Below are positions 35,459 to 64,000 of a DNA stretch of 64,000 nucleotides, one piece after another. The notes beneath the pieces are model-generated. The model was not told where the DNA came from and searched no databases. It saw only the letters and a program-made list of their open reading frames with translations. Position 1 is the first letter of the stretch. Each line of letters opens with the position of its first letter. The translations under genes and the position numbers were made by a program. The stretch is from Cymodocea nodosa (taxonomy: Eukaryota > Streptophyta > Magnoliopsida > Alismatales > Cymodoceaceae), in contig CM072340.1 of the NCBI GenBank assembly GCA_036874045.1, positions 5,099,001-5,163,000 on the forward strand. The letters are read 5' to 3'.

Positions 35459-35764
35459 ATCTCCCCCTTTTTGATAATGTCAAAACCTAATAGGTCAAAT
35501 AATCTTTCTCGCCCTTTTTGGTATTATAAAAAAGTAAATAAAATGTAAGGATGAAAAACTTTGCTAAGTATATATCATTTAAAAAGACATTTTTAAGCAT
35601 GCATAACTATCGTGGATAAGAATAAACTGTTTGAAAAAACTTGTCAAAAACAAGTATATGATCGTTAAATGTAGTAAACAATTTACATAATGTGATTGCT
35701 TTACACAAGTAATTTTTGGTAACAAATTACAATAAATAAATCATGCAATACATAATTTGTATAA

Positions 35765-42104: not shown

Positions 42105-42106
42105 AT

Positions 42107-42118
42107 TGGTATGAGAGC
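42107..42118 (+). other. CO-3 primer binding site (tRNA-iMet)
   Basis: TGGTATGAGAGC follows the LTR after two bases. It matches the common copia site TGGTATCAGAGC with one change. Confidence 0.88.
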
Positions 42119-42199
42119 ATCTTATCTTAATTAAGAGCTTTTATTTCTCTATTTAGGAATCAATTTTTCCTATCATTTTCTCAAGATCATTTGTTTAAA

Positions 42200-44213
42200 A
42201 TGGATAATACTGAAATCTTAGTTATGACTGAGGGACAGACCACTAATCGTCCTCTTATGTTCGAAGGTAGCAATTATGGCTACTGGAAATATAGGATGAA
42301 AGTATTCTTTTAGTCAATCGATTTCAAATTATGACATATAATTAGCAATCCTATAGTGTTAGTTACAACTCCATATGATACTTGGACTTTTGATGAAAAG
42401 GAGCGAATGACATTGATTGCTAAAGGTTTAAACATCTTGTTTTGTGCTTTATCTCACGATCAATTTAATAAAGTTTCTGTATATCAAACTGCATATGAGA
42501 TATGGCATGCATTAGAAGTTGCCAACGAAGTACTAACCAAGTCAAGGAATCTAAGATTAATATGTTAGTAGATAAATATGAGCTTCTTAAAATGCACGAA
42601 AATGAATGTATGTCTGACATGTTTTCCCATTTTCTTGAGATTGTAAATTCATTAAAATCTTTAGGCAAGAAATTCAAGGAAAAAGACTTGGTAAGAAAGA
42701 TCCTTAGATCTTTAACTAAAATTTGGGCTCAAAAGACAACATCTATTGAAGACTCCAAAGATTTAAATACATATACTCTCGATGATCTCATAGGAAATCT
42801 AACAGCCTATGAAGTACAACATTTAGATCCAAAAGGTAAAAATCCTAGAAGGGATCTAACTTTTGAGGCTGATAAAGTCTCAGAAGTCACTAGTGATTCT
42901 AACGATGATTTACTGTTGTTGACTAGAAAATTTAGAAATCTGTTGAAGAAACGCAGGAACTTCAGGTCAGCAAAGACATCTAGAGATATGGAGAAGAAGT
43001 CATTCACGAAAGACAAAATCATATGCTACAAGTGCAACAGACCAGGTCACTTTCAAATTGATTGTCCGCTCAACAAAGATAAGAAGAATTCGAGGAGGAA
43101 TTTTAGGAGTAAGAAATTCAGAAAGAGAAGGGCACTTAAAGTGACATGGGATGACTCTTCAGCTTCACAAAGTGAAGAAACAAAGGATTCAACATCAAAC
43201 AATGACTCCTCATCAACATCAGATTCAGAAGAAAATCTGGCAAACGTATGCTTCATGGCAAAATCTAGTGAGGTATCCTCTAATCAAAATGCTAACTTTG
43301 ATAGTTTTGATGGATTACTTGTTGAATACAATAGACTCGCCAGAAAATATAAGAAAGTAAAAATAGAAGGAAAGAACACTAGGAAAATGCTAGATGAATC
43401 TGAAAATAAGGTTGATTTTTTGAACTCTACGTTGAATAAATTTAAAGAAGAAAATCAAAGGCATGCATAGGAAATTTTAAAGTTTACTGCAATAGAAAGA
43501 AAATTTCATGCTAATCGTGAAAATTTAATTGTTGATAAGAAGAAAATGATTTGTGAAATTGAAAAACTGGAACTGACTATTACTGATTTAAATTCAAAAA
43601 TTGATATGTTAAAGATTAAGGTTTGCGATCAAAAAGCTATATTAAGTAAATGGAATAATAGTCAAACTATAACAAATGAACTTAGTAGTAAAATATCAAA
43701 TGTAGAAAAACATGGTATTGGTTTACACGATGCATCTTCTAAAAATTATATATTGCATGATGGTACTACTAAAAATAATGTCTTTATTTTCAGTACTAAG
43801 AATAGTAAGAGAAAAACTATTCCGTGTGTAATTAAAAAGGGAGAAAAATATGTGCAAATTGATAAAATGCAGCATATAAATGATAGCACACGATGCAAAA
43901 ATGTCAAAAGAAATTTTCAGAAAAATCAAGCTAAGACATTTGAGAATCTTAATATTCTTGATCAATTTTCTTCATATTTAAAGAATATCGGATATTGGAA
44001 ATCAAATAATGTCAAAAATAAAAATTTCAACTCTAGTTTACATAGAGATAAATGTTCTGATAATTATAACACTAAGAGAAAGAAATGAAAAAATAATTAT
44101 CAGAAAATAGATAAGTTGAAGTCTAAAAATACGGATTATTTTGATATAACTCTCTCTAAAATTCTTGGATCCACTCAAAAATGGGTTCCAAGAGATAAAA
44201 TCTCTTTTTGACT
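42200..44213 (+). pseudogene. CO-3 gag
   Basis: Starts MDNTEILVMTEGQTT at 42200. The copia gag core follows (MFEGSNYGYWKYRMK, FLEIVNSLKSLGKKF). Two early stops lie near 42312 and 42330. A one-base loss near 42530 (GAAGTACT, against GAAGGTACT in CO-2) shifts the frame. The zinc knuckle CYKCNRPGHFQIDC is intact at about 43024-43065. A Ser-rich region and a long coiled coil (NENKVDFLNSTLNKF-like) follow, with a TAG at 43468 and a TGA at 44086. The protease continues in a different frame, so a further frameshift lies at about 44205-44235. Gag is the structural protein of the particle. Confidence 0.9.
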
Positions 44214-44234
44214 ATTTTGTAGGTACAAAAATCA

Positions 44235-45197
44235 AAATGGATAATGGACAGTGGAGCATCCAGCCACATGACTAGAGATATACAATTACTTACAGAAATA
44301 ACAAAGACCAAGAATGGACAAGTTACCTTTGGAAATAAAAGCAAAACAAATATCCTTGGGTTTGGCAAGGTTCAGGTAACTGAGAAATGCTTTATAAATG
44401 ATGTCTTACTAGTGGAAAACTTAGGTTTTAATTTATTGAGTGTTCCTGTTTTAATGAAGTTTTATAGAGTAATTTTTGAAAAAGATTCTTGTAAAATTAT
44501 AGACATGTCTACAAACGAAATTTTATTCACTACATACAAGAAAGGATCCATTTGTATTCTAAATTTGCCTTCTGATATTATTAAAGACAATGCTTGCTTA
44601 ATTGCAAAATCAGATGAAGTTATTTTATGGCATAGAAGGTTAGGACACTCAAATTTAAAATTATTACAAAAGCTATCTAAAAAGAATCTAGTTAGAGGTT
44701 TACCTAGTATTAAGTACTCGAAAGAGTTTATCTATGATGCATGTGAACTAGGTAAATTACATAAAACATCCTTTAAAAGTTTAAATGAAATAACAAGCAA
44801 AAGAGTATTAGAACTAGTGCATATGGATTTATTTGGACCTACTAGGACAACCAGTCTAGGAGGTAAACATTATGCTTTTGTACTAGTTGATGACTATTCT
44901 AGATTTACTTGGGTCTATTTTCTAGCTAATAAAACTGAATTTTTTGAAATATTTAAGATATTATGTAATAAAGTTCAGAATGAGCAAAATGTTAAAATTC
45001 AAAAACTTAGGAGTGATCATGGTACAGAATTTGATAATGATCAAATGGACACCTTTTGTGAAGAATTAGGCATAGATCATAGGTACTCATTTCCAAGAGC
45101 TCCTTTACAAAATAGGATAGTAGAACGTAAAAACAGATCACTTCAGGAAATGTCCAGAACCATGTTAAATGAGAATAAGTTACCCATATTTCTCTAG
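44235..45197 (+). pseudogene. CO-3 protease and integrase
   Basis: The protease active site is KWIMDSGASSHMTRD at 44235-44280. The integrase zinc finger spans LWHRRLGHSNLKLLQK to YDACELGK; the first Cys of the CxxC pair has changed to Tyr. The core has VHMDLFGP (Asp), LRSDHGTEF (Asp) and NRIVERKNRSL (Glu). The frame ends at a TAG at 45195. The protease cuts the polyprotein and the integrase inserts the cDNA. The frame continues after the stop towards TACYVINRVHL and the GKL-type C-terminal part. Confidence 0.93.
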
Positions 45198-47133
45198 GTA
45201 GAAGTAGTTCATACAGCATGCTATGTTATAAATAGAGTACATCTAAGACCAATTTTAGATAAAACTCCTTATGAGATATGGTATAATAGGGTTCCTAAAA
45301 TAAGTTATTTAAAACCCTTTAGCTGTAAGTGTTTTATTTTAAACACTAAGGAATGAAGAGACAAATTTAAAGCCAAATCAAATGAGGGTATTTTTGTTGG
45401 TTATTCCATTAGAAGTAAGGCATATAGAGTTTATAATAAACCAACAAAAACCATTGAGGAAACCCTACATGTAAAATTTCATGAAAATTCTCATTTGGAT
45501 GTGTGACATGCTAAATAGGAAACCCTACATGTAAATTTTGATTTAAAAATTCTCCTAGAAATGGTATCAAATGATTTTAACAGAGAAATTAAGAGATTAT
45601 CTGATGGAATAAGAAATATAAACTTAAATGATGAAAATTTAGAAGAAAATAATGTCATACCTATAGAAAATATGGAACAACATAGAAATTAGCGTTATGC
45701 TTCATCTCATCCTATCGATCAGATAATAGGTGATCCTAATTAAGGAGTTAGGACTAGGTCATCAGTAGTCAACATTTGTGGTGCTTATTCATTTGTTTCT
45801 TTACTAGAACCTAAGAAAATTGAAGATGCCTTAGAAGATGAATTTTGGTATTTAGCTATGCAAGATGTGCTAAATCAATTTATAAGAAATGAGGCATGGG
45901 ATCTAGTTCCACCACCTGAAAATCAGTCCATAATAGGAACAAGGTGGGTATTTAGAAACAAAGTAGATCAAGATAGACATATAGTTAAAAATAAAGCTAG
46001 ATTAGTTGTTCAAGGTTACAAGCAAGAGGAAGGAATTGACTATGATGAAACATTTGCTCCTGTTGCTAGACTAGAATCAATATGAATTTTGTTAGCATAT
46101 GCTTGTTATATGGATTTCAAATTATATCAAATAGATGTTAAGACTGCCTTTTTAAATGGATATATAAAAGAAGAAGTGTATGTAAAACAACTTCCAGGTT
46201 TTGAAGATTCAAAACATCCTGAGTATGTTTATAAGCTTATGAAGGCACTATATGGCCTTAAACAAGCCCCTAGATCTTGGTATGAGAGATTATCTAAATT
46301 CCTTATGGAAAAAGGGTATTCTATGGGAAAGGCAGATCACACTCTTTTTATCAAGAAGATCGAAAAAGATATATTAGTAGTTCAAATCTATGTAGATGAC
46401 ATCATATTTGGAGCAACAAATGATAAATTAGTTGAGTCCTTTTCGGATGACATGACTAATCAATTTGAAATGAGTATGATGGGTGAACTATCATTTTTTC
46501 TAGGCTTACAAATTAAGCAATTAGATCAGGGTACTTTTATTTCATAAGAAAAATATACTCAAGATTTATTAAAGAGGTTTGGTTTAGACAACACTAAAAC
46601 AAAGAATACACCAATGAGTACTATCACCAAGTTGGACAAAGATGACTCTGGAAAAATTGTAGATGTAAAACAATATAAAAGTATGATTGGTTCATTACTT
46701 TATTTAACAGCTAGTCGACTAGATATTATGTTTAGTGTGTGTACTTGTGCTAGATATCAATCTAATCCTAAGGAATCACATCTACTTGCTGTTAAACAAA
46801 TTTTTAAGTATCTATTAGGAACCATTAATTTCGGATTGTTTTACTTTAAACACAGTTCTTTAAATTTAATAGGTTATAGTAATGCTGATTTCGTAGGATG
46901 TAAGTCTGAAAGAAAAAGCACTAGTGGTAATTGTCAATTATTAGGAAATTCTTTAGTGTCATGGTTTAGCAAAATGTAAAATTGTGTAGCATTATCTACA
47001 ACTGAAGCTGAATATATAGTTGTTGTACTTTGCTATGCTCAAATCCTATGGATCAGACAAACTTTAAAAGATTTTAATTTAGCCTATGAACCAACTAAGA
47101 TTTTCTGTGATAGTAGTTCAGCAATAAGTATAT
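45198..47133 (+). pseudogene. CO-3 integrase C-terminus, reverse transcriptase and RNase H
   Basis: After the stop, integrase continues (SYLKPFSCKCFILN, GIFVGYS). A local duplication of about 70 bp carrying GGAAACCCTACATGTAAA lies at 45455-45540. RT starts at about 45820 ([34 protein letters not shown]), then [12 protein letters not shown] and the catalytic YVDDIIFGA at about 46390. RNase H is at about 46870-47130 (GYSNADFVGCKSERKSTSG, STTEAEYIV). The end of RNase H is deleted at 47133. In-frame stops are at 46083, 46545 and 46977, among others. Confidence 0.92.
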
Positions 47134-47134
47134 A

Positions 47135-49366
47135 GATGACATTCAACATTATTTTCCCCCGGCTATTTTAGATGACATTCAATAGTACATAGATGAACAA
47201 AAAATTGCCATTAGGAAAATGGGTCTTCGAAGTGAAGGACAAAAAGTTTATCAACTAAAAATGGCAGAGGTTGAGAGCTTAAAACTCTATATTCCATTAT
47301 TACCACCTGGGCATCATGGTGAAGGACCATCACGACCACAAGTGCCTTTAACAGGAGAAATTAAGAAAATTTTAGAACCACCTGAACAACCAGAAACACT
47401 GCAGACATATAGTCGGAAAAAAAAAAAGACATTAGAATATTTTAGACTAACTACAGGTGTAGAAGGAATAATGTAGCAAAAAGAAGAATCATTGAAAAAT
47501 GGAAAACTACGTTCCATTGCAGAAGTTGGACAAACATTTGTGTCAGGAATCCTAGCCGATGTGACAAATATTGGATTACACGCATATACTCTAAGGTATT
47601 GTGTCACATTAGTGCATAATATATCTTTTAATAAAATGGACAGTTTTTCACATCATGCTGCTAGCACACATTCTTTTCCTACGGAAAGAGAACATGTAGG
47701 AAATTTTGATGATACATATACAGATGATATCAATTTTGATGATATTTTTGATAATATAGACACTGAGTCTATGAATGTTGAAGATATTTCATCTGAAGAG
47801 GAATATACAGATATTCTTCCTCTAACTATATCTCGGATAGAAACTTTTGATTTTTGGTATAGTTGCTTATACTACAGTTTATACATATGGTTATGTCTGT
47901 TACAGTATATAATATACTTGTTGATAAATGTATATAATCAACAACATACACAGTTACAGATTGAATATCACACTACCAATGTTTCAAGTATAGAAATTTC
48001 AAAAATACAGAATGAATCTATTATAGAACATTCTTTCCTACAGAGACAGTTGTTGTATAGATCAATCATAGATATAAATGTTGCTGATAGACAGTTTGAT
48101 ATAGAGATTGTTGCTACTCATATGTCTCAAGAAGAACAAACAGAAGAATTTCAGCAGATTATTGATACGACAATAACAGATATTTCAAACATTTATACCA
48201 GCTTTGATAGAAATTCCACCAATTCTGAAAGCTCTGAAAATATAGATACTGCTGATAATTTTGAAACCAGTCCCAGATCAGAACATTATGACAGGAAAAT
48301 ACCTAATCCTGAACAGAGTTTACACGAAAATACATTATTATGGTTCAGAAATAGTTCCTATTATGAACAATTTCAAACATATAGAACTTTTATAGTTTTA
48401 TACTCAATACCAGTTAAGTTTGAAGGGATGGAACATATATAAGAAATGTTTGAATTTCAAGGCTTGTTAACTCTACTTCCACAACAGCTAGGCCATCTTG
48501 TTATACCCGAACTTATCAGCTGTTTTTACTCAAACTTAACAGTGGAAGAAGGTATTCTTGTTTCCAATATACAAGAAAATGACATATATTTAACTCCAAA
48601 TTTACTTTATTAAGTACTTGGTCTGAAAAATGAAGGAGTTAAATTATCTGAAAGAAAACAGGTTTATCAATTGGGATGGGACATTCAAAGTTTAGCCAAA
48701 GATCCAACTGCCAACAAACCAATGAGATTACTAAATGATTTAAATGGCCAAGCACATTTTATTGCAAAATTACTACATGCTTCATTGTTTCAAAGGTTTG
48801 GTTATGGTGCAAAAGTTGGCAGATGTTGTCTTTATGCTACGTATGCATTAATTAGCCATATATAGGTGAACTGGTATGATATTTTTGTTTCTCATATCTT
48901 ACATTTGCAGAGTAAATTATTTTATGGTGATACGATTTTGAGAATTGTGGCAAGTCAAACAGATATTACACCTTGGCCATAGAAAAGATTAAAGTCAAGA
49001 TCTTTCTTTGCAAAGGAACTCCAAAAATACTAGGAAGCAGATACACCTATAGTCCAACAACAACAACAACAAGATAGGCAAACACAGTCACAATAGCAAC
49101 AGCAACAATCAACACAATTTTCAGAACAACAACAACATACAGATATCAATATCGATATACATACAGATATAAATACAGGTATACAAACAGATACAAATAC
49201 AGGTATACATACAAACATCCATACTGAATTTTTACAGCAACCATCACACGTTTCACAAAATGATTTAGATCAAGCAATAATTGATTAGATAAATAGAGTA
49301 AGTATAGAAATTGCAAAGCAAATTTCAAACACACTAATCAGTATTTTTCGAAGACGAGGCTTGTGA
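47135..49366 (+). pseudogene. CO-3 extra ORF, N-terminus deleted
   Basis: Matches the CO-2 extra ORF from about its residue 140 to the end at 49366. Conserved parts: KVYQLKMAEVESLKLYIPLL; an Asp-rich region (DDINFDDIFDNIDTESMN); the shared domain from 48451 (EFQGLLTLLPQQLGH, YALISHI, KLFYGD, KRLKSRSF); a Gln run near 49060; a 24-bp repeat encoding TDINTGIQ/TDTNTGIH; and the C-terminal helix (IEIAKQISNTLI). Stops include 47474, 48440, 48613 and 48864. The N-terminal 140 residues and the end of RNase H are lost at a junction flanked by two copies of AGATGACATTCAA. Confidence 0.88.
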
Positions 49367-49588
49367 TTATACAAATTATGTATTACATGATTTACGTATT
49401 GTAATTTGTTACCAAAAATATTATGTAAATTGTTTACTGCATTTAATACTCGTGATTATTTTTCATAATTTATATTTAAACAGTTTATGCTTAATCCATG
49501 ATAGTTATGCATGTTTAAAAATATCTTTTTGAACAATATGTACTTAGAATATTGTTCTTCCTTACATTTTATTTACTTTTTTATAATG

Positions 49589-49655
49589 CCAAAAAGGGGG
49601 AGAAGAGATAGATTATTTGACTTATTAGGTTTTGACATCATCAAAAAGGGGGAGA
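49589..49655 (+). other. CO-3 duplicated polypurine tract
   Basis: CCAAAAAGGGGGAGAAGAG (49589-49607) and CAAAAAGGGGGAGA (49642-49655) lie 52 bp apart. The second directly precedes the 3' LTR. CO-2 has the same pair (complement at 35459-35520), so the doubling is a family trait and is likely the plus-strand primer region. Confidence 0.8.
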
Positions 49656-49656
49656 T

Positions 49657-50859
49657 TGTTAGGAATTTTGTTTTGATGATATATGCTTTATTAAAGTTTT
49701 TAAATAAGTCTAAATAATATTCTCTAAGTATATTTCTCTAAGTATAATAGTTAACAGATTATCGGAAAGTTTCATTTTTATATCGGATAAGTTAAAGATT
49801 TCTGAAGAGTTAGATTTTTGATAGTTAAACTTTCGGATAGTTAACGTTTCGTTTTTGTCAAATAGTTTATGTTAAAAACTTGTATAGTTAAGTTATCTGC
49901 ACGTGTGTTTTTAATGTTTTAAGTTGTCACGTGTTTTCCATGTGTGTTCAGTAATGAAAATCGAATAGTTAGATAACTATTCGAGTTTTTATATACATGG
50001 ATAGATAAGTCTTCGAGTTTTATAAAATGACTAATGAACAGATAAGTTTGCTATGTTTAGTCATGTATTTTGCAGGTGCAAAAACTCGAAGAGTTACAGA
50101 TAAGTATTTGAGTTTTTACAGGAGTAAAAGGATAAGTGTTCGACTAAATCGAAGACTTAGAAGATATTCTACAAGACTCCAAGAAGATAAAGTCTTGGTG
50201 AATCTATGAGTGGAGATCGTGGAAATTCAAAATTATAATGGAGAAAGTGGAAACTCAAAAAGATAGTAATTTGGATTAAAGAAAAAATTAGTACGTGGAT
50301 TATGGATTAAGTGGATGAACATGATGAACGTGAGAACATAGGTCGACTACTAATAGAGAGTACAAGCTACATTACAACATAGAATCCCAATCTCAAAAAC
50401 CAAGTCTGAATATTCAATCTGGATCCCTAACTGAAAAGTTAAGTTTGAATATTCATATTCTGAAAAATTCTCCAACATCAAAAGAAGTTCGAAATTCCAA
50501 GCAATTTCAGAAAAGGAGCTGCAAACGCAAGAAGTCTGGAAATTTGACAACTAGAGAAGAAGAGATATAGAAGCTGAGCAAAGAGAAAGAAAGAAGCTGT
50601 GTGCATAAAAATCAGGTTTTATACAATTCAAAATTAGTTTTGAATAAGAACTTTGTTTTTCTATTTGAATTGTATATCGAATATTACTGTATCAAAACTT
50701 TCAAGAAGGGAATTGAGCTGAAAAGATATAGTAAATTCTATCTTTACATAAAGAATAGAATTTCATTTACGAGTGTTTTGTGCTCTTGTTTTATCTGCTA
50801 GTATTTTAATTACTAAAGACATAATTCACCCCCCCTCTTGTGATACAGACGATCCTACA
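49657..50859 (+). repeat. CO-3 3' LTR
   Basis: 1203 bp, same ends as the 5' LTR (last bases GATCCTACA against GATCCAACA). It carries two CACGTG sites near 49900-49935 and many GATAGTTAA motifs. Confidence 0.95.
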
Positions 50860-51587
50860 TTTGGTCAACAATAGTAAATCATCATTAGAATCACTAGTGA
50901 CTTTTGAGACTTTATCAACCTCAAAAGCCAGATCCCTTCTAGGATTCTTCCCTTTTGGATCTAAATGTTGTACTTCATAAGCTGTCAGATTGCCTATGAG
51001 AACATCGAGGGTATGTATTTAAATCTTTGGACTCTTCAATAGATGTTGTCTTTTGAGCCCAAATTTTAGTTAAAGATCTAAGGATCTTTCTTACCAAGTC
51101 TTTTTCCTCAAATTTCTTGCCTAAATATTTTAATGAATTTACAATCTCAAGAAAATGGGAAAACATATCAGAGATACATTCATTTTCGTGCATTTTAAAA
51201 AGCTCATATTTATGTACTAACATATTAATCTTAGATTCCTTGACCTGGTTAGTACCTTCGTTGGCAACTTCTAATGCATGCCATATCTCATATGCAATTT
51301 GATATGTAGAAACTTTGTTAAATTGATCATGAGATAAAGCACAAAACAAGATGTTTAAACCTTTAGCATTCAGTGTCATTCGCTCCTTTTCATCAAAAGT
51401 CCAAGTATCATATGGAGTCGTAACTAACACTATAGGATTGCTAATTATATGCCATAGTTTGAAATCAATTGACTAAAAGAATACTTTCATCCTATATTTC
51501 TAGTAGCCATAATTGCTACCTTCAAACATAGGAGGACGATTAGTGGTCTGTCCTTCAATCATAACTAAGATTTCAGTATTATCCATT
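50860..51587 (-). pseudogene. CO-2 gag, N-terminal part
   Basis: ATG at 51587 (MDNTEILVM), then gag core residues (TPYDTWTFDEKERMTL, ALSHDQFNKVS, MFSHFLEIVNSLKYL) to 50860, where CO-3 interrupts. Stops occur near the YWKYRMK region and near 50975. In this copy the VANEGTNQVKE stretch is in one frame, which shows that the frameshift in CO-3 gag is a later single-base loss. Confidence 0.9.
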
Positions 51588-51666
51588 TTAAACAGATGAT
51601 CCTAAGTAAATGACAGGAAAAACTGATTCCTAAATAGAGAAATGAAAGCTCTTAATTATGATAAAT

Positions 51667-51678
51667 GCTTTGATACCA
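51667..51678 (-). other. CO-2 primer binding site
   Basis: The minus strand reads TGGTATCAAAGC, a near match to the tRNA-iMet site, two bases from the LTR edge at 51681. Confidence 0.85.
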
Positions 51679-51680
51679 GT

Positions 51681-52731
51681 TGTAGGATCGTTGTATCATA
51701 AGAGGGGGGTGAATTGTGTCTTTAGTAATTAAAATTACTAGCGGATAAAACAAGAGCACAAAAACTCGTAAATAAAATTCTATTCTTTATAAACTTTAAA
51801 GACAAAATTTACAATATCTTTTCAGCTCAATTCCCTTCTTGACGATTTTGATACAGTAATGTCTGATATACAATTTAAATAGAAAATGAAGTCCATATTC
51901 AAAACTAATTTCGAATTGTATAAAACCTGATCTTTATGCACGTAGCTCCTTTCCTTCTTTTTGCTCAGCTTCTATATCTCTTCTTCTCTAGTTGTATTTT
52001 CAGACTTGTTGCGTTTGCAGCTCCTTTTTTGAAATTGCTTGGAATTTCAAACTTCTTCTGATGTTGGAGAATTTTTCTAGATATGAATATTCAAACTTAA
52101 CTTTTCAGTTTGACATCTGGATTGAATATTCAGACTTGATTTTGAGATTGGGATCTTCATTGTAATGTAGCTCGTACTCTCTATTAATAGTCAAACTTTG
52201 TCTTCACGTTCAGCATGTTCATCCACTTAATCCATAATCCACATACTAATTTTTTCTTTAATTCAAATTACTATCTTTTTGAATTTCCACTTTCTCCACT
52301 ATCATTTTGAATTCCCATGATCTCCACTCGTAGATTCACTGAAACTTTATCTTCCTGGAGTTTTGTGGAATATCTTTTAAGTCTTCATTTTAGTCAAACA
52401 CTTATCCTTTAAGTCCTGTAAAAACTCGAACACTTATCTGTAACTCTTTGAGTTTTTGCACATGGAAAATACATGACAACTTAAAACATTAAAAACACAC
52501 GTGCAGATAACTTAACTATACGAATTTTTAACATAACTCTTCGATTAAATCAAAACGTTAACTATCTGAAAGTTTAACTATTTGAAAACTATAACTATCC
52601 GAAATTAAAGTGAAACTTTCTGATAACTTGTCAACATTTAACTATGTGACTATTTTACTTAGAAAATATTATTTAGTCTTATTTATATAAACTTTAATAA
52701 AGCATTTATCATCAAAACAAAATTCCTAACA
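51681..52731 (-). repeat. CO-2 5' LTR
   Basis: 1051 bp, from TGTAGGATCG to TTCCTAACA as written on the plus strand. It is about 190 bp shorter than the 3' LTR, mostly through loss of repeat-rich sequence in the part matching 35000-35300. Confidence 0.9.
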
Positions 52732-52779
52732 ATCTCTATCGATAGTAGAAACTTCTGTCACTACATGCAACGTGATTAT
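52732..52779 (-). repeat. PG-B2 5' LTR, segment 2
   Basis: A 48-bp piece that continues the LTR sequence interrupted at 34220 (compare 9216-9265 in PG-B3). It begins with the ATCTC duplication of CO-2 and ends with the ATTAT duplication of PG-A2 (52775-52779). Confidence 0.9.
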
Positions 52780-54316
52780 TGTTCAAGCTTTAATTTTGCC
52801 CATTTTTAATGAATTTTATAAGTAATTTTGCATGATATTATATATCTATGGTGGATAAATGATATTAATTATGGGTAATATAAGTCTTGAAATATAGTGC
52901 AATATAGAAATTTAATTAACAAGTGCATCCCCCATTGGATATAATTTTACATGGAACACATTGATTTATTTTGCATGTCCTATGTTGGCTAACGTCTCTT
53001 GGAGTTCAACTTCCATTAATTGTAGGTAACATATATATGGGAGGAGCTTAATGCAAAAGACCAAAGAAGATGTAAAGAATCAAAAGTTGGTGGACTAAAC
53101 TTTAAAGAAGAGGACATGCCAACACCTTATTGGCCCTCCTAGATCTATGGCATCTTATTGGCTTGGTGATAAAACCAAGGTGCCACATCAAAGAGAGAGA
53201 AGACAAAACAACATAAATACAAGGGGAGAGGATTTTCGGCCATGACCTTGGTGCTTCCAACGAGAGAAATAAGGAGGAGAAGAAGCTTGGAGGTGAGGCT
53301 TGTGCTTCCAAAGAGAGACCATCCATTCATGCTATTCACCATTCCAAGGGCTAAGGAGAAGACGTCCAAGCTTGGAGGTGGATTTGCTGCCAAGTTCCAT
53401 TGAATTCAAAGCTCTAGAGAAGAAGATAAGAAGCTCCTAAGGTAGTGACAACTCTTAGAGTTTATTATTTTCTTGTGTAGAAGGAAGAATTGATGAGAAA
53501 TGGTGGTGAACATCTCAATTATATGTCCTCTTAGCTAGATAGAGTTCAATGAATGTATATGAATGTTTAATTCTTCTTTTCAACTTCTAATTTGCATCCT
53601 CTATTCACGTGTATTGTTGGGGCTGTTGGTGAGGCTTTCACACGAGTGAATGACACTCATCAATGGTGGCTTGGCGCATTTGAGAAGAAGGTGTGAATTG
53701 AAAGAAGAAGAAAATAAGTGTTGATGTTCATTTGAATGAAGAACCTATCACTTATATCTAGTTGTTAATTTTAATTTCAGTAGTTAATTGAGTTTGTTAT
53801 ATCTTATATTGATCACATTTTGTCCTAATCAATCTCCAAAAAGAATTTCTAATGCAAGTAGTATAGTATAGTTTAGCTAGATTAGCAAATAGCATAGTTG
53901 CATGCATTTAGTATAAATTAGAATAGAGTAGTATAGTCTATTGAACCTTCTTGTTTTATTTTTCTTTCCTTAATATTGATGCATGGATATCACTTCTGAA
54001 ATCACGTGGAACTTGTGTGCATGTTATAATTGAATGAGTTGATAGATTTACAAGTAAAGAAATTGATTCACATCACCATTTTCCACTACACATTGCCTTG
54101 AAATTGCATGATTTGTGAGCTTGTGTTAACTTTGATTATTCTACATTCACATGTCATTAATTTACTGAAGTATACCTAAGAGCTTGAAGAACAAGTTGAG
54201 TAATAGTTGATTAAGTCATAAACACAATCCTTGTGGAAGAATGACTTGTATTTGCCATGTACACCAAAAGAACTGTGCACTTGCAGCAAAGCTTGAGCTA
54301 AAAATATAGCTCAACA
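52780..54316 (+). repeat. PG-A2 5' LTR
   Basis: TGTTCAAGC to CTCAACA, 1537 bp. It differs from the 3' LTR at three places seen by eye, all within the first ~250 bp. Confidence 0.97.
53129..53219 (+). promoter_or_regulatory. Candidate PG-A LTR promoter
   Basis: Two inverted CCAAT boxes (ATTGG at 53129-53133 and 53157-53161) lie about 80 and 52 bp upstream of an ATAAATA box at 53213-53219. The same set is in the 3' LTR. No transcript start is known. Confidence 0.45.
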
Positions 54317-54322
54317 AGTTTT

Positions 54323-54341
54323 TGGCGCCGCTGCCGGGGAT
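54323..54341 (+). other. PG-A2 primer binding site (tRNA-Asp)
   Basis: TGGCGCCGCTGCCGGGGAT, six bases after the LTR. It matches the complement of the plant tRNA-Asp 3' end with one mismatch. This primer is typical of Athila/Tat gypsy elements. Confidence 0.9.
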
Positions 54342-54465
54342 TGGCAATTTGGCTTAGTTTATTTTTACCATATTTGAAGTTCTTAGTTGGTTGTTTGACA
54401 AATTTTGATAAACATATCTTTCTTGTGCTTAGTTGTGAATTTTATTGCTTAAATTTCTTGCAAGT

Positions 54466-57400
54466 ATGTCAAATTTTCATCATGATGATCCTTTTAAGTT
54501 TATAAATGAATTTTTATCTGAAAGTGCTTGTTCTTATTGCCATGTAAAAGGTCATGATGAAAGCATATGTACCAGCAAGTTATTTAATATAAAAATTCAA
54601 CCAGTAGAAGAAACAACTCATGTTAGTGATGAATATGATGTCTTGCATGATGCTAGTGAATTTTCTTACGATTTTGATATGCATAAATCTCATATTGATG
54701 AAAGAAATGATGTTTGTGATTGCTCTCATGTTAGTAGTAGTTCTATAGAAGAGTCCATGAGGAATATAGAGAGAATCATAGAGTTAGGAGATAGCTATTA
54801 TGTTGCCACTAAGCTCCTACAACAAAAAGAAGGTGTAATTGTCATAGATGATGAAGAAGACTCTAATGCTGATGAAAACGTGAATTTAATCTTAAGATCT
54901 GGAAAAACCATAGAAAGAAACATATTAGAACATAAAAGTGAAGAAAAACAAAGTGAAGAAAACGTAGATGAAAAGGAAGAAAATATGTTGACAAGAGATG
55001 AACATAAGGATGTAGAACTAGAACATGAAGGAGTTGAACTTGAAAAATGTCTAATGGATGAAACTAATGAAGAATTAATTGAAGAAAACCTTGTTATAGA
55101 CTTAGAAATGGATAAAAAGAAAGAAGAAACATCTGAAAATATGAATAACAAACCACCATTTCCTAGTCGGCTTGACAACAACAAAGAAAATGAGGAAAAT
55201 GAAGCTATAAGAACCATATTTGAGAAAATCAATGTTAATATGCCTATGTTAGAATTAATTAGAAAAATTCCAGCATATGGGAGGGTGCTTAAAAACCTTT
55301 GTACCAAGCATAGGAAGCCAAGAAAAAAATTAAGTAAGCAAGTTTATTTAACCGAGTTAAGTAGTTCAATGTTGCTTGATAGTTTAGCTAAAAAATTCAA
55401 TGATCCTCTAATAACTTGCTTAATAGGGAATGTTTTAATTGAAAAAGCATTATTAGATCTTGGTGCAGGAGTTAACGTGATGCCAAAACACTTATATGAA
55501 CAATTGAGAATCACAGGAATTAAGAAAACTAGAACACTAATTAAACTAGCTGATAGATTATATAGGAGTCCCATGGGTATTGTAGAAGATGTCTTAATTC
55601 AAATTGAAGATTTTATATACCCAGCCGACTTTATCATTTTAGAAACCAATGCACCAACTTGTGAACCAAATGAATCTACATTGATCCTAGGGAGACCATT
55701 CTTAGTAACTATTAATGCTCACATTAATTGCAGAAATGGTAAAATGTCAATCTCATTTAACAATAAGGTGATATCATTGAACATTTTTAAAAGAGATAGG
55801 ACTATAAACCATCAAGTAGATGACAACATTAGTGTAAGCATTTCTGAATTATTTGAAGAAGTCGAAAATAGTAGTAATGAGGAAGAACTTAGTGCTGAAA
55901 TTTGCTTTCTAGACGTTGAAGATAATCTAGAACACAAGGCATCTTTACAAGAGAATAGTGGTGAGCATGAAATGAATAATGACTTGATTTTAGAAGTTAA
56001 GGAAAGGAATAAATTAAAAGCACTCCCACAAAATCTGAAATATGCATTTATAGATAAGCAAAATGAATATCCTATTATAATTGGAGCAAACTTAATCCCA
56101 AACCAAGAAGAAAAATTAATGAAGATATTAAGTAAAAACAAGAGAGCTCTTGGTTGGCAATTGAGTGATATTGTAGGAGTTAGTCCCACTATAGTTCAAC
56201 ATAGAATTATCCTAGAAGATGAGAACTATGCCTTTAGAGAACCTCAACGTAGATTAAATCCCCAAATGAGTGAGGTGGTAAAGAAGGAGATAGTTAAATG
56301 GCTTGACAATGGCATTATATACCCTATTAGTGATAGTAGGTGGGTAAGCCTTGTGCATGTAGTACCTAAGAAATCGGGCTTTACAGTAGTTGAAAATCAA
56401 GATCATGAGTTAGTGCCTACTAGAATAAAAACTAGTTGGAGGGTATGTATTGATTATCGTAAATTGAATTCTGCAACTCGTAAAGATCATTTCCCATTGC
56501 CATTTGTTGATCAGATGCTAGAAAGGTTAGATGGACATGAATTTTATTGTTTTCTTGATGGATACTCTGGGTACAATCAAATACCCATAATCTCTGAGGA
56601 TCAAGAAAAGACTACTTTTACTTGTCCAAGCGGAACCTATGCTTTTAGGTGTATGCCTTTCGGTTTATGTAATGCGCTTGCAACATTTCAAAGATGCATG
56701 GCAGGAATTTTTTATGATATGAATGAAAAATTTTTAGAAATTTTCATGGATGACTTTTCTGTTTTTGGCAAAAATTTTGATATTTGTTTACATCATTTAG
56801 ATATGGTTTTGCAAAGATGTGTTGAAAAGAATTTTATCTTAAATTGGGAAAAGTGCCATTTCATGGTGAATGAAGGCATAGTTCTTGGGCATGTGATATC
56901 TAATAGAGGGATTGAGGTGGATAAGGCAAAAATTGACGTTATATCTCATTTGCAGCCACCTAAATCTGTTAAGGAGGTTAGAAGCTTTTTAGGACATGCT
57001 GGTTTTTATCGTAGATTTATTCATGATTTTAGCAAGATAGCAAGACCTATAGCTAATTTACTTGCAAAAGATTCTGAGTTTGTTTTTGATGAACATTGTC
57101 TTGCTGCCTTTAATCAACTTAAGCATGCATTAATATCTCCTCCTATAATTCATGCCCCAATATGGGATTATCCTTTTGAAATTATGTGTGATGCCTCCAA
57201 TTATGCAGTAGGTGCAGTACTTGGGCAAATAATTGATAAGAAACATCATGTCATATGCTATGCTAGTAAAACTTTGAATGAAGCTCAAGTAAATTATACT
57301 ACCACAGAAAAAGAATTTCTTGCTGTTGTTTTTGCTCTAGATAAATTTAGACCATATTTAGTTTGCAATCAAGTTATTGTGCATACTGATCATGCAGCTA

Positions 57401-58905
57401 TTAAACATTTGATGAGTAAAAAATATGCAAAACCAAGATTAATTCGTTGGGTTTTATTGTTGCAAGAATTCAACATAGAAATTAAAGATAAGGTTGGAAA
57501 AGAAAATTTAGTTGCTGATCACCTCTCTAGATTAGAAAATATTCCAGCATGCAATAATGTGATTAATGAAAAGTTTCCTGATGAGAGTTTATTTCTAGTT
57601 GGTAAGTTACCTTGGTTTGCAGACATTGCTAACTATCTTGCTACAGGGTTAATACCAACTGATTTATCTAAACCAGATAAGAAAAGATTGAGGTGCATGA
57701 CTAAACATTATGTTTGGATGGAACCTTATTTGTATAAAATGGGTTCTAATCAAATTTTAAGAAGATGTCTTCCTGAAGATGAAATTGCTAATGTCTTAAA
57801 TTTTTGTCATAATCATGCTTGTGGAGGTCATCTTAGCCATAGAAAAACTTCTTTGAAAATTCTTGAATGTGGATTTTATTGGCCTTCTCTAATTAAAGAC
57901 TCTAAAGATCATTGTAGACATTGTGATAGATGCCAAAGAATGGGAAAAATTTCCAAATGAAATATGATGCCTTTGAATCCTATCATTGAAGTTGAAATTT
58001 TTGATGTTTGGGGCATTGATTTCATGGGACCATTTCCCATTTCTTTTGGTTATTCTTATATTTTGTTGGTTGTTGATTATGTTTCTAAATGGATTGAAGC
58101 TATCCCAACTAAGAGAAATAATGCTAAAGTTGTTGTTGATTTTCTTAGATCTAACATTTTTGCTAGATTTGGTATTCCAAGAGCTATAATTAGTGATAAT
58201 GGACCTCACTTTTGCAACAGAGTATTTCAAATGGCTTTGAGGAAGTATGGGGTTACTCACAAGTTAGCAACACCATATCATCCTCAAACAAGTGGGCAAG
58301 TTGAGGTATCCAATAGACAAATCAAGCACATGCTCGAAAAAGTAATCAAACCAAGTAAGAAGGATTGGGCAGAAAAGCTTAATGATGCACTTTGGGGTTA
58401 TAGGACTGCCCATAAAACTGTGTTGGGAATGTCACCATTTAGAGTAGTTTATGGGAAAGCATGTCATTTACCTATAGAAATAGAACATAAAGCAGAATGG
58501 GCTATTAGAACATTTAACATGTGTGTTGATGATGCAGGAAAAGCAAGAAAATATCAACTCAATGAGTTGGAAGAAATAAGAAGAGAGGCTTATGAAAATG
58601 CAAAGATTGCAAAAGAACGAGCAAAAGCATTCCATGACAAGAAAATTTTGAGAAAGGACTTTCATGAGGGACAAGAAGTTTTATTATATAACTCTAGATT
58701 ACATTTGTTCCCTAGAAAATTTAAGACTAGATGGACAGGACCATTCATCATTAAACATATGTATAATCATGGAGCTATAGATATAGAAAATTGTAAGACA
58801 GGATTTAAAACTGTAGTGAATGGTCAAAGACTTAAAGAATATTATCCTGGAAAAACCTACAATCATGGAGAGAGTGCTTTGTTGTTGGAACCCAATTATA
58901 ATTAG
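54466..58905 (+). pseudogene. Pol polyprotein of PG-A2, interrupted by one TGA
   Basis: First ATG at 54466 (MSNFHHDDPF). Residues 22-35 form a CX2CX4HX4C knuckle. An acidic region and LRSGK precede the protease (Asp 331, LLDLGAGVNVMP). RT has FMDD at 760-763. RNase H acidic residues fit Asp 909, Glu 948 and Asp 975. The integrase finger is His 1117, His 1122, Cys 1153, Cys 1156. TGA at 57958-57960 (codon 1165) splits finger from core; related copies have Arg at or next to this place, so CGA-to-TGA is likely. The core has Asp 1185, Asp 1244 and Glu 1280 (exact D,35,E spacing), and the protein ends EPNYN. All catalytic residues are kept. It starts 125 bp after the primer site, leaving no room for gag. 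Confidence 0.95.
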
Positions 58906-59278
58906 TGTTTGTATGTATTTAGTTGTAGATGTAGTTTTTCTTTTCTTAATTCTTAGTAATTTTTCATTCTATGTATTAGTGTGTTAGTAGTTAACAATAA
59001 AATTTATTATTGCAAGTTCATGTCAAAATTTTATATGCTTATTATCATGCATCTATCCTTGTTGTTTCATGTCATCTTGAATTTATATGGTGAACCATTC
59101 ATGCTGAAATTTTATGATATATGATGGTACTTGTATACTTTGATGATATTTCACCATGTAAATAACTCTTGCATATACTCTTGAATTACATAACTGATGT
59201 GAATGTCTTAGTGCATGAAAAGTTGGGAGAGGCGCAGATAATAGGTTGATACGCATAGAGAATCAAAAAGAAACACAC
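58906..59278 (+). other. PG-A2 pol-gag spacer
   Basis: 373 bp, AT-rich, no ORF. It would have to hold whatever lets gag be made: a splice acceptor, an internal promoter or re-initiation. I see no convincing TATA box or polypyrimidine-AG site by eye. No CGTTGAGTTA palindrome is present, unlike in PG-B. Confidence 0.5.
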
Positions 59279-60574
59279 ATGGCAGCAAACAATAATGAGA
59301 GGAGGGTGGTGCTGAAGGACATGTTCTATCCTACACAGAGAAGTAGGATCACTTGCATTCAACTACCAGATGAGAATGGAGCACATTTTGAGTTGAAATC
59401 CCACTACATCAGCCAATTACCAAAGTTCATGGGACACGATGATGAGGATGCTTATGGCTTCCTTGAAGAATTTGAAGATGTATGCAACTTAATGAAGATA
59501 CAAAATCTGACAGATGATTCCATCCTATTGAGATTTGTTCCCTTTGCCTTGAGAGACCAAGCAAGAAGGTGGCTTCAAAGTTTACCACCCAACTCTATTA
59601 CTTCATGGGAGCAATTTAGTGCCATCTTTTTGAAAAGATTCTATCCAATTGCCAAAACAAATGAGATGAGAAAGGTTATTAATTCTTGCTATCAAATGCT
59701 AGAAGAATCATTTGCTAATTTCTTTAGCAGGTTCAATGAATTGCTTGTGAGGTGTCCACATCATGAGATACCCTTGTGGAGACAATGCCAAATCGTGTAT
59801 GATGGAATCCCTACATCGGTAAAGGGCTTGCTGGAATCCATGGTGCAAGGAGACTTTGCAAATCTTGAAGATACAGTGGCATGGAACTTCTTGGAAGAGT
59901 TGGCGGCAAAGACATTAAGTTGGGAGAAATCCTCTCCAAGATCTGAAACAAGGCAAGAGAAGGGCATTCATTCCATAAATGCAACCACGGCCCTTGAAAT
60001 GAAATATGGAAGCCTATTGAAAAGGGTTGAAGCAATAGAAGGAAAAGGGAAAGAACCAATCAAGTGCTTGGGATGTAATATGGTAGGCCATATTGTGAAT
60101 GAATGTCCTATGTTGGCTAACCCTTCTACTGATGTTCAGGAAATATACACAAGGAACAATCAAAGGCAAGAAGTTTATGGCAACTCCTACAACCCATCTT
60201 GGAGGAACCACCCAAACTTTTCATGGAGAAACTCACATTTTCAAGATAATCAACATGGTGAATCCTCAAATTTTCAAGGCAATCAACCTACACGAAATAC
60301 TATGGAATTGGCTAAGAAAAATGATCATTCAGTAGTAATAGAAGACATGGGAAAGAAGATAGACAGCTTGATCAAAGGCATGGAAGCATTCGCCATGAAC
60401 AAAGCTAAATATCAACCAATTGTGCATGCTAATGCACAATCAATCAGTAAGATAGAGGCACAACTATCCCAAATATTAGCAAGGCTTTGCGAGAGGGAGA
60501 AAGGAACCATTCCAAGCCAAGCTATCACAAATCCACGTGTCAACCAAGTGGAGACAACTTTAGGAGAAAAGTAA
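59279..60574 (+). CDS. Gag of PG-A2, complete, located 3' of pol
   Basis: ATG at 59279 (MAANNNERRVVLKDMFYP) opens 431 codons without a stop; an upstream non-ATG extension in frame is unlikely. The capsid core is clear: ITCIQLPDENGAHFELKSH, FVPFALRDQARRWLQSL, ITSWEQFSAIFLKRFYP, FFSRFNELLVRCPHHE. Next come a CX2CX4HX4C knuckle at residues 263-276 (CLGCNMVGHIVNEC), then YNPSWRNHPNFSWRN, a Gln/Asn-rich stretch and a C-terminal helix. It ends QVETTLGEK. Gag builds the virus-like particle and its knuckle binds RNA. It is the longest fully open, recognisable gene in the window. Its place after integrase is the reverse of normal. Confidence 0.96.
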   Translation: MAANNNERRVVLKDMFYPTQRSRITCIQLPDENGAHFELKSHYISQLPKFMGHDDEDAYGFLEEFEDVCNLMKIQNLTDDSILLRFVPFALRDQARRWLQSLPPNSITSWEQFSAIFLKRFYPIAKTNEMRKVINSCYQMLEESFANFFSRFNELLVRCPHHEIPLWRQCQIVYDGIPTSVKGLLESMVQGDFANLEDTVAWNFLEELAAKTLSWEKSSPRSETRQEKGIHSINATTALEMKYGSLLKRVEAIEGKGKEPIKCLGCNMVGHIVNECPMLANPSTDVQEIYTRNNQRQEVYGNSYNPSWRNHPNFSWRNSHFQDNQHGESSNFQGNQPTRNTMELAKKNDHSVVIEDMGKKIDSLIKGMEAFAMNKAKYQPIVHANAQSISKIEAQLSQILARLCEREKGTIPSQAITNPRVNQVETTLGEK

Positions 60575-62136
60575 AGAGAAGAATCACTTGCAATCAACAA
60601 GATAGCTAGAGGCAACCTTTTATCTCCACAACTTATGCTCGGCTTATTTGATAAGAGACTTATTTTATTTCATGCTTGAGATGTTTAATTTTAAAGAACA
60701 GAATTTGATGATATATTTGAAAGTAGTTAGATGCATGATTTTCAAATACTTGAAGGGTGTAGAATGGGTTAAAAGACTTTATCATGATATCATGTGTTTG
60801 TTTGACGAATTGATGTTCAACTATAATTAGAGTTAAATACATTTTATCTACACCACTTGAAGAGTAGTGCACAACAGGTATGCGCTAACATTTTTTTATT
60901 ACTTATTCTTATTGTTGAAACAATCCTTTCTACATTGAGGACAATGCAGGAACTAAGTGCGGGGGGGAGGAGAAAGTAAAAAAATGTTTTAGGATGCATA
61001 CTATAGCAATGAAATTGAAAATTTTCCAAATGTAAGTTTCTTTCACAAGCAAGTTGGTGGTAAGTTTGAAAATTCATTCTATATGTTGCATGCCACCATG
61101 TTTTATGTGTATCCATGATAAGAACTTGCATGTCAATTTTTTTTAGGAAATAGCTTTGTTAGTTTAATTTTGATTTTGAATTATTGCATCTTAGCCTTAC
61201 TAGCATGCTACTCAATCTCCATTGTATGCTCTTAAGGTTAAGATCATTAATTCTTTAGTAGTTTTAGCTTTGTTTTCATTTGAACTTAATTTCTTTTTGT
61301 GGCATGTTGAATTTTCTTCAGTAATGTTCTTTCCTTATGATGTCTTACACTTAGAGCTGAGCTTATCTTTAAGGTGAGGATAGGAATATGCATTTGAGAT
61401 GCCAACCATAGTTTCTTACTTATAACATATACACATTCTTGCACTAGACTCTTAATCATGTGGTATCTAGAGGACTCTTCTTATGACATGAATCTTGAGG
61501 AGTGGCTTAGGAAATCTTTCCAATAGGTTGTCCCATGAGAAGGGTAGATATATGAATTTGGGAATAAGGTTTGATACCTGTTCTCATAAGGTTGCTGGGG
61601 ACGGAGGCTAAGTAACCTCTTAGTCTTCACATGTAAACCCTTTATGGGAGGTATCCTAAGGGTAGTGGTAGGATGTGAGAAAAGAGAGGTTTCAAAAAAA
61701 AAAAAAAAAAAATGGAAGAAGTTATTCTATAGAATGAATAAAGAAAATACTTTTATAGAATAAAAAAAAAAAAAAACTCAATTGAAAATAAAGGGGCAAT
61801 GTACTAGAGGATAGAAGCCTAAAGAAACCTTCATGTATTCTTGGATTAAGTGAGATGAACCTAGATGCTATTGATTATGGGTCTAAGCACTTTGCACTTA
61901 ATAGTATCTTAAAAACTTATTTTCCTTAGGTTGGCATTAGATGTCTATTCTATATTCCTCACCATTACAGGAACTCAACTTGTGAGTGGAGATTATCTAT
62001 AAGTATTGTTGCATTACTTGGTGAGAATTTAATTTGCCTTAATTTTCTTTATTGTGTTTGTTTGTTAAAAGGGGTTCCTTAATCTTTTCTTCTTTAAATT
62101 TTGCTAGAGGACTAGCAAAGTTTAAGTGTGGGGGGG
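60575..62136 (+). other. PG-A2 3' noncoding region with two hairpin/G-tract modules
   Basis: 1.56 kb with no gene. Module 1: hairpin CATTGAGGACAATG (60933-60946), then AAGTGCGGGGGGGAGG (60955-60970). Module 2: hairpin GCTAGAGGACTAGC (62103-62116), then AAGTGTGGGGGGG (62124-62136), directly at the LTR. A tracts lie at about 61694-61712 and 61762-61775. The same layout is found in PG-A1. Confidence 0.8.
62117..62136 (+). other. PG-A2 polypurine tract
   Basis: AAAGTTTAAGTGTGGGGGGG lies directly before the 3' LTR and is the expected plus-strand primer. Similar tracts are known in Athila/Tat elements. Confidence 0.85.
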
Positions 62137-63673
62137 TGTTCAAGCTTTAATTTTGCCCATTTTTAATGAATTTTATAAGTAATTTTGCATGATATTATAT
62201 ATCTATGGTGGATAAATGATATTAATTATAGGTAATATAAGTCTTGAAATATAGTGCAAGATAGAAATTTAATTAACAAGTGCATCCCCCATTGGATATA
62301 ATTTTACATGGAACACATTGATTTATTTTGCATGTCCTATGTTGGCTAACATCTCTTGGAGTTCAACTTCCATTAATTGTAGGTAACATATATATGGGAG
62401 GAGCTTAATGCAAAAGACCAAAGAAGATGTAAAGAATCAAAAGTTGGTGGACTAAACTTTAAAGAAGAGGACATGCCAACACCTTATTGGCCCTCCTAGA
62501 TCTATGGCATCTTATTGGCTTGGTGATAAAACCAAGGTGCCACATCAAAGAGAGAGAAGACAAAACAACATAAATACAAGGGGAGAGGATTTTCGGCCAT
62601 GACCTTGGTGCTTCCAACGAGAGAAATAAGGAGGAGAAGAAGCTTGGAGGTGAGGCTTGTGCTTCCAAAGAGAGACCATCCATTCATGCTATTCACCATT
62701 CCAAGGGCTAAGGAGAAGACGTCCAAGCTTGGAGGTGGATTTGCTGCCAAGTTCCATTGAATTCAAAGCTCTAGAGAAGAAGATAAGAAGCTCCTAAGGT
62801 AGTGACAACTCTTAGAGTTTATTATTTTCTTGTGTAGAAGGAAGAATTGATGAGAAATGGTGGTGAACATCTCAATTATATGTCCTCTTAGCTAGATAGA
62901 GTTCAATGAATGTATATGAATGTTTAATTCTTCTTTTCAACTTCTAATTTGCATCCTCTATTCACGTGTATTGTTGGGGCTGTTGGTGAGGCTTTCACAC
63001 GAGTGAATGACACTCATCAATGGTGGCTTGGCGCATTTGAGAAGAAGGTGTGAATTGAAAGAAGAAGAAAATAAGTGTTGATGTTCATTTGAATGAAGAA
63101 CCTATCACTTATATCTAGTTGTTAATTTTAATTTCAGTAGTTAATTGAGTTTGTTATATCTTATATTGATCACATTTTGTCCTAATCAATCTCCAAAAAG
63201 AATTTCTAATGCAAGTAGTATAGTATAGTTTAGCTAGATTAGCAAATAGCATAGTTGCATGCATTTAGTATAAATTAGAATAGAGTAGTATAGTCTATTG
63301 AACCTTCTTGTTTTATTTTTCTTTCCTTAATATTGATGCATGGATATCACTTCTGAAATCACGTGGAACTTGTGTGCATGTTATAATTGAATGAGTTGAT
63401 AGATTTACAAGTAAAGAAATTGATTCACATCACCATTTTCCACTACACATTGCCTTGAAATTGCATGATTTGTGAGCTTGTGTTAACTTTGATTATTCTA
63501 CATTCACATGTCATTAATTTACTGAAGTATACCTAAGAGCTTGAAGAACAAGTTGAGTAATAGTTGATTAAGTCATAAACACAATCCTTGTGGAAGAATG
63601 ACTTGTATTTGCCATGTACACCAAAAGAACTGTGCACTTGCAGCAAAGCTTGAGCTAAAAATATAGCTCAACA
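62137..63673 (+). repeat. PG-A2 3' LTR
   Basis: 1537 bp, same ends as the 5' LTR. It is followed by the ATTAT duplication at 63674-63678. Confidence 0.97.
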
Positions 63674-64000
63674 ATTATATCACTGAAAACTTAATCACTT
63701 ACAATCTTGCCTCCTCTCCCTATAGAATCACGAACGAAGAGTTGTAAGTTGATCTCCTCCTTAGTATATTGGCATTAACCTGAAACCAAGGCTAGAAGCT
63801 TTATGATCTCCTAAGATATGAGTCGATGCTTAGTGAAAATGGCTTCCCTTTCTGTGATGCGATCACTCCTCACAATGGTTGTTAGTCATCATGTTTGGCT
63901 TGGAATCGACCCGACATCCGAAAAGTATCCTCACAGACCTCCAATGGTTGGTGATTTTGGTGGTGTTGTGGAGCTTCAAGGAACTTCTGATGCTTCCTAT
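63674..64000 (-). repeat. PG-B2 5' LTR, segment 3, running off the window
   Basis: Continues the PG-B LTR in the minus orientation (compare 9255-9575 in PG-B3), starting with the ATTAT duplication. The LTR start and the target duplication of PG-B2 lie beyond 64000. Confidence 0.9.

Follow-up and report, generated by a model that had tools for sequence, protein, structure and literature searches.

Can a Ty3/gypsy retrotransposon carry its gag gene behind pol, and how would it then make Gag? Long terminal repeat (LTR) elements and retroviruses are generally treated as gag-first, and their excess of Gag as a product of frameshifting, of readthrough or of a short RNA for gag. The question is raised by element A2 in a 64,000-nucleotide stretch of Cymodocea nodosa DNA (assembly GCA_036874045.1, contig CM072340.1, positions 5,099,001 to 5,163,000 of the forward strand; hereafter the window, to whose numbering all coordinates refer). 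The gag-last layout of A2 was found to be common to many copies of its own family, family A, and to two more families of the same genome, B and D. For the account as a whole, we are fairly confident that a family of the Athila lineage relocated gag once as a separate 3' gene, that the layout then multiplied, and that Gag is made from a spliced RNA.

Organization of element A2

A2 has the order LTR-primer binding site (PBS)-pol-gag-polypurine tract (PPT)-LTR, all on the + strand. Its LTRs (5', 52780–54316; 3', 62137–63673) are 1537 bases each, have TG...CA ends and show three differences, and the element is flanked by the target-site duplication ATTAT (52775–52779 on the left, 63674–63678 on the right); the insertion site is an LTR of a family B element, B-minus. 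An Athila-type PBS (54323–54340) starts 6 bases past the 5' LTR and may, by comparison with Diaspora, pair with tRNA-Asp, for which its sequence type and position fit. The pol gene (54466–58905), interrupted by a TGA codon, encodes a zinc knuckle, protease, reverse transcriptase (RT), RNase H and integrase, the last four in the sequence known from Ty3/gypsy elements. About 0.3 kb 3' of the pol stop begins gag (59215–60574), with an Athila-type N-terminus from 59215 and a frame uninterrupted between 59219 and its stop at 60574. The PPT is a G-run (62130–62136) abutting the 3' LTR. The Ty3/gypsy hallmarks of two LTRs, TG...CA ends, PBS, PPT and a short target duplication are therefore all present. 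The initial annotation of this DNA had read pol first and gag last inside matched LTRs with a target duplication, and both the coordinates and the Pfam domains agree with that reading. A hidden 5' gag was considered and excluded, since the 149 bases between the 5' LTR and the pol ATG leave no space for one. No env-like 3' open reading frame (ORF) was seen either: from the pol stop to the 3' LTR, gag is the sole + strand frame of at least 80 codons.

A second PPT-like G-run lies at 60961–60967 (+), 1.2 kb 5' of the PPT. Both modules read GAGGAC...AAGTG[CT]GGGGGGG, and that at 60961–60967 may have served as a PPT at an earlier time.

Pfam matches to RT, RNase H and the zinc-binding domain of integrase fell within 54466–57957, to rve within 57961–58902 and to Retrotrans_gag (PF03732, 1.3e-18) within 59279–60571; the protease gave a sub-threshold match (E 0.022–0.038) and aligned clearly to Athila proteins. 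Besides the zinc knuckle of Gag (60065–60106, +), there is one of the form CX2CX4HX4C at the N-terminus of Pol (54529–54570, +), which the initial annotation had overlooked. The A2 gag stops where ordinary Athila polyproteins continue into an LRSG linker and protease, and this linker is found in A2 Pol, behind an N-terminal segment of ~140 residues. No Pfam family exceeded its cut-off in this segment or in the 5' ORF of family B. When the segment was compared with the stretch from knuckle to LRSG in 40 ordinary Gags, the median z was 2.2 (8/40 above 3); the likeness was carried by the knuckle, and behind the knuckle the median z was 0.6 (1/40). The segment is a possible stump of a former 5' gag, with a likeness that does not extend past the knuckle. 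Confidence in the predicted structure of Gag is low (mean pLDDT 58); against the PDB every match of the model had E ≥ 0.5, although the 50 matches listed were all to retroviral capsid or Arc.

The gag-last layout in other family A copies

We asked whether the order is a property of A2 or of its family. A DNA search of the same assembly (374.6 Mb, 28 contigs) gave 89 gag candidates, of which 40 were scored, A2 included, at 97–100% identity. Of the 39 other scored copies, the 20 best, spread over 13 contigs, were fetched with 10 kb around each. Integrase stood ahead of gag in all 20. The 5' LTR end, the PBS leader and the pol N-terminus were present upstream in 19/20 (L024 was without them), and a 3' LTR in direct orientation, whole or partial, followed in 16/20, with other or inverted sequence in its place in L013, L018, L020 and L025; direct LTRs flanked both ends in 15 copies. 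Pol was a single open frame of 1489–1491 codons in 9 of these 20 copies, and the 431-codon gag stretch was free of stops in 5; in at least one copy both were open. A family is non-autonomous when a required gene is absent from it, and here copies with an open gag stretch and an open pol exist.

Flanks were examined in 13 family A copies, 9 of which were comparable at both ends. A perfect 5-base target duplication was found in 5/9, and one more agreed over the 4 bases visible. LTR divergence was 0.3–1.5% in 12 of the 13 copies (the figure for L018 is meaningless, its 3' LTR being missing). We conclude that family A multiplied in the gag-last layout by ordinary retrotransposition; the target duplications and the low LTR divergence of the 12 copies support the earlier proposal that the layout transposed recently. 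In L031 with L011, a G-run precedes the 5' LTR, as in a tandem array with a common LTR.

The same copies correct the reading of the A2 genes. The pol gene had been annotated over 54466–58905; its extent holds, and its continuity does not, for a TGA at 57958–57960 divides it. This TGA is private to A2 (0/20 other fetched copies), and conserved stop-codon readthrough was accordingly rejected. Likewise, the full gag reported at 59279–60574 is an Athila-like gag as stated, with an Athila-type start that lies further upstream, at 59215, and out of frame in A2; by eye, the frame from this start is kept in 19/20 other copies, one of these 19 having a stop codon.

Families B and D and the phylogeny of the gag-last elements

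Two family B elements lie in the window, B-plus and B-minus, and their RT protein is ~62% identical to that of family A. Both have the order 5' ORF with knuckle, protease, RT, RNase H, integrase, ORF X, gag and an F-box ORF. Among three other fetched B copies, RT-integrase-X-gag-F-box was found in two. Family D came to light when the genome was searched at the protein level with P0161, a gag-protease protein of the ordinary type; 67 of 12198 first-look candidates were scored. All 67 matches ended at residue 417–443, short of the LRSG at 454, and 17 were without internal stops. Gag-first copies would score higher by continuing into the protease, yet none of the scored matches does so; a frame change at the same point would mimic a stop before the protease, and order is therefore established only for fetched copies. 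Two divergent matches, family D, were fetched, and in both of them protease, RT, RNase H and integrase stand before gag, as read from the DNA upstream of it, with an integrase-gag spacing of ~0.3 kb.

The RT tree (29 rows with D; 6 of 33 RT rows omitted) grouped A2 with P0001 (support 96/95), the B elements (100/100) and the D elements (100/100), and joined all of these in one clade (83/79); in a 27-row version without D, the clade of A, P0001 and B had 90/78. The clade adjoins P0009, which is of gag-first type by sequence. For gag, 82 matches were thinned to 38 at 75% identity and 3 window rows were added; from these 41 rows, 15 were omitted and 12 new rows plus P0126 added for a 39-row tree. 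Here A2, P0126 and P0162 grouped at 100/98 and B at 100/100, with a joint clade at 96/81, and the neighbours were P0163 (order not known), P0164 from Apostasia and P0161, the last two having Gags that continue into the LRSG linker. In an earlier gag tree (9 long-branch or weak rows omitted, P0126 added), a clade of A2, B-plus and B-minus that excludes P0126 was not recovered, as is expected if P0126 nests inside; such a clade was not rejected (approximately unbiased test, p 0.169). Gag and RT trees agree, indicating that the gag-last elements form one clade within ordinary Athila; descent of A, B and D from one gag-last ancestor is likewise indicated by the trees. The RT of A2 reaches 68–73% identity to Athila-like plant proteins and is placed among them, in trees that are without Tat, Ogre or a named Athila reference.

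The relatives P0126 and P0162, from Joint Genome Institute (JGI) metagenome data, are gag ORFs whose ends correspond in position, ahead of LRSG; P0001, also from JGI, is a pol that groups with A2 and has no gag as called by its source. They are hints of the same layout in another plant, on contigs of <3 kb in which the order is not visible. Scans of viral contigs with gag and with P0001 gave no relative.

How Gag would be made

With gag 3' of integrase, Gag cannot be the leading portion of a Gag-Pol fusion, and gag-last elements must set the Gag:Pol ratio by another route. The initial annotation called for a spliced or an internally started RNA. Gag probably comes from a spliced RNA, to judge from two sites in family A. 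A splice-donor-like CAA/GTATGT (54464–54469, +; the slash marks the putative junction) overlaps the pol ATG at 54466; it is the only match to the donor pattern from the LTR start to 54700 and is kept in all 19 copies that retain the region. Only 3 bases separate a splice-acceptor-like AG (59210–59211, +) from the gag ATG (59215) that follows it, and this AG is kept in 20/20 fetched copies. Pol would then be translated from unspliced genomic RNA, and Gag from a spliced subgenomic RNA that joins the donor at 54464, over the pol start codon, to the acceptor at 59211, before the gag AUG. Splicing would thus remove the pol start and put gag in front, and its rate would set the Gag:Pol ratio. Ahead of the pol ATG we counted 36 ATGs, over the whole LTR and leader and regardless of the transcription start.

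Two considerations count against splicing: the family A copies are 97–99% alike, so that little can be read from the sites being conserved, and in family B neither a donor-like site nor an acceptor is evident. The earlier call is reasonable and fits the splice-like sites of family A; it finds no evident counterpart in B. With the layout as described, Gag could instead come from an internal transcript started by a promoter in 3' pol or the intergenic region, from an internal ribosome entry site, or from reinitiation after pol. We regard this as a serious but clearly less probable alternative. It gains from our having seen no splice-like sites common to families A and B, and against it stand the family A donor-like site lying over the pol ATG and the AG just before the gag ATG; moreover, splicing that yields a gag RNA is known from plant retrotransposons, as described for EVADE (PMC8892269).

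Origin of the layout

The most likely history is a single relocation of the entire gag gene, followed by multiplication of the layout. In the shared ancestor, gag would have moved to the site where other Athila elements have env-like ORFs; a template switch or a recombination event between two copies would be the simplest route. Pol would have retained, or acquired, an N-terminal segment that bears a zinc knuckle of its own.

Could pol elements without a gag instead have acquired one as an additional 3' ORF on several independent occasions? The spacing gives this some appeal, as gag follows integrase by ~0.3 kb in A and D but lies behind X and at a distance of several kb in B, and so does A1, an existing family A copy that has no gag. 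Against it stand the agreement between the gag and RT trees, the single clade formed by the gags of the gag-last elements, and the corresponding gag ends in A and B. We hold repeated capture to be improbable.

A1 (1–3869, +), which has no gag block, is the 3' part of another family A copy. Farther upstream, outside the window, lie partial RT, then other sequence and then a 5' LTR fragment, and no gag match was present in the 9.5 kb upstream of A1. A1 was considered as a sign that gag is a recent insert, and this was rejected, A1 being otherwise deleted too. Its junction, a 4-base ATGC by eye, is equally compatible with deletion and with insertion.

A still less probable idea is that the 3' gag is a relic and that particles are built from the Gag of ordinary gag-first elements. 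It can point to the 15 of the 20 fetched family A copies with at least one in-frame stop in the gag stretch. However, the stretch is open in the other five, at least one of which is open in pol too, and none of the 67 scored gag matches runs into protease, though gag-first copies would score higher. Furthermore, the ratio of nonsynonymous to synonymous divergence (dN/dS) between B-plus and B-minus is the same for gag (0.37, bootstrap 0.24–0.59) as for RT (0.37, 0.23–0.58). With 0.28 (0.16–0.52) for the 5' ORF, 0.18 (0.11–0.29) for X and 0.23 (0.11–0.48) for the F-box ORF, gag, RT and the other tested ORFs of B are under purifying selection. Finally, a chimaeric insertion or assembly artefact specific to A2, for which the initial annotation had proposed a check, is refuted by the order recurring in all 20 copies on 13 contigs, with target duplications, and in two further families; the search for copies with gag upstream of pol, proposed alongside, gave the opposite result.

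Several observations weigh against the account as a whole. A2 itself is broken, with the in-frame TGA in pol and the initial gag codons out of frame. Among the nine copies comparable at both ends, one target duplication agrees at 4 of 5 bases and two show no agreement. A1 is without gag, and the dN/dS of integrase between A2 and A1 is 0.33 with an interval (0.14–1.21) that includes 1. Gag-first copies with a frame change could also explain P0161 matches that end before the protease. The support of the RT clade, 83/79, is moderate. In L051, the third fetched B copy, X-gag-F-box is preceded by foreign sequence, copia-like by eye, and not by pol.

Family B elements and other contents of the window

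B-plus (15737–28634, +) interrupts the integrase of B-minus, where its insertion left the 5-base duplication ATATT. It has a 5' LTR (15737–17987), a 5' ORF with knuckle (18087–18584), protease (18944–19543), RT/RNase H (19843–21402), integrase (21390–21812), X (23389–24021), gag (25003–26343, with stops), the F-box ORF (26540–27430, with stops) and a 3' LTR remnant (28447–28634), all on the + strand. B-minus (8491–34223, −), which B-plus splits, has on the − strand its 5' ORF at 33393–32911, protease at 32799–31900, RT/RNase H/integrase at 30962–28636 with further integrase at 15723–15202, X at 13394–12762, a broken gag at 11486–10577, the F-box ORF at 10112–9766 and a partial 3' LTR at 9760–8491; its 5' LTR appears to extend past the inserted A2. 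By eye, the knuckle of the 5' ORF is complete in B-minus and has its last Cys replaced in B-plus (18141–18182), and no CCHC knuckle is visible in the open part of the B-plus Gag (25123–25983).

The F-box ORF matches PF00646 at 1.7e-9 in B-plus and is known by alignment in B-minus; in the B copies L050 and L052 it lies near 8370–9290 of the element strand. By these sequence matches, family B is a retrotransposon carrying an F-box protein, and an exact-phrase search with partial coverage of the literature found no F-box ORF in a retrotransposon. ORF X, between integrase and gag, resembles PF20167 below the cut-off. Between the two B copies its synonymous divergence (dS) is 0.82, compared with 0.19 for gag, an excess that suggests mosaic ancestry. 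Weaker likenesses to X occur in other repeats of the window (36068–36619, −; 48491–49030, +). A genome search with the B gag gave 4331 first-look candidates, from which we take the family to be probably very large; the 40 scored had 95–100% identity.

The block 34223–52736 contains many inverted repeats and holds, at 42499–46547, Ty1/copia-type fragments recognized by eye (CCHC gag, integrase, RT).

Relation to known elements

In foamy viruses Pol is made from its own RNA and not as a Gag-Pol fusion. The gag-last elements resemble them in that Pol is not a Gag-Pol fusion product, and differ in that gag, still first in foamy viruses, is last. For the Ty1-copia-type element BARE, separate RNA pools, with a separate spliced RNA for Gag, are said to exist. 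In EVADE (Ty1-copia), a separate spliced subgenomic RNA, shGAG, sets the Gag excess (PMC8892269). Both of these carry gag 5' and make a short RNA that is spliced and terminates early, whereas here pol would be spliced out.

The elements described here are like Athila (Athila4, Diaspora, Calypso, Cyclops) in RT and integrase similarity, in an Athila-type Gag, in the G-run PPT and in the PBS, whose type and whose position shortly after the LTR are shared; the Gags have in common PF03732, the N-terminal W-x-R motif and WRNHPNFSW. Athila elements have gag first, alone or fused to pol, and the gag-last elements have neither arrangement. Diaspora has a single gag-pol ORF of 1892 codons with gag first (PMC1142308), unlike the present elements with gag after integrase. 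A sense-strand additional ORF between pol and the 3' LTR is known in plant elements, as a review of additional ORFs states (PMC7264820). Site and strand are the same here, but the ORF is gag and not an env-like or other protein of unknown kind. The 3' ORF of Bagy-2 is reportedly expressed from a spliced RNA. BARE-2 and some Retand clusters have no gag domain at all (PMC11963269); they share with our elements a pol ORF without gag ahead of it, whereas here the gag domain is retained.

In Gymny of pine, an Athila-related element, gag sequence lies close to the 5' end, and the available text makes no gag-last claim (PMC2633040). In what is accessible of the International Committee on Taxonomy of Viruses profile of Metaviridae (PMC7879559) and of a review of host factors (PMC12786077), gag is first or no other order is mentioned. 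An exact-phrase search found no published description of a gag-last element, and with its partial literature coverage this is a weak absence. The classification of Ty3/gypsy elements uses GAG before PROT-RT-RH-INT, where RH is RNase H, and the reference survey of plant LTR elements always removed elements of unexpected domain order as likely mispredictions (PMC6317226); integrase before gag, as in all 20 fetched family A copies, falls outside that scheme. Such filtering may explain the lack of gag-last reports.

We put it at even chances that this is an old and successful Athila-type lineage that inverted gag and pol, in which genomic RNA yields Pol by default, Gag is made under regulation from a subgenomic RNA and splicing over the pol start acts as a switch between enzyme and shell, and to which family B added an F-box protein and a second ORF next to the relocated gag (pol-X-gag-F-box). 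Order-based filtering is a blind spot, and gag-last lineages may have been discarded elsewhere. A high-copy pol-first lineage would show that the gag-first order is not essential, and makes the setting of Gag excess testable by simple RNA mapping.

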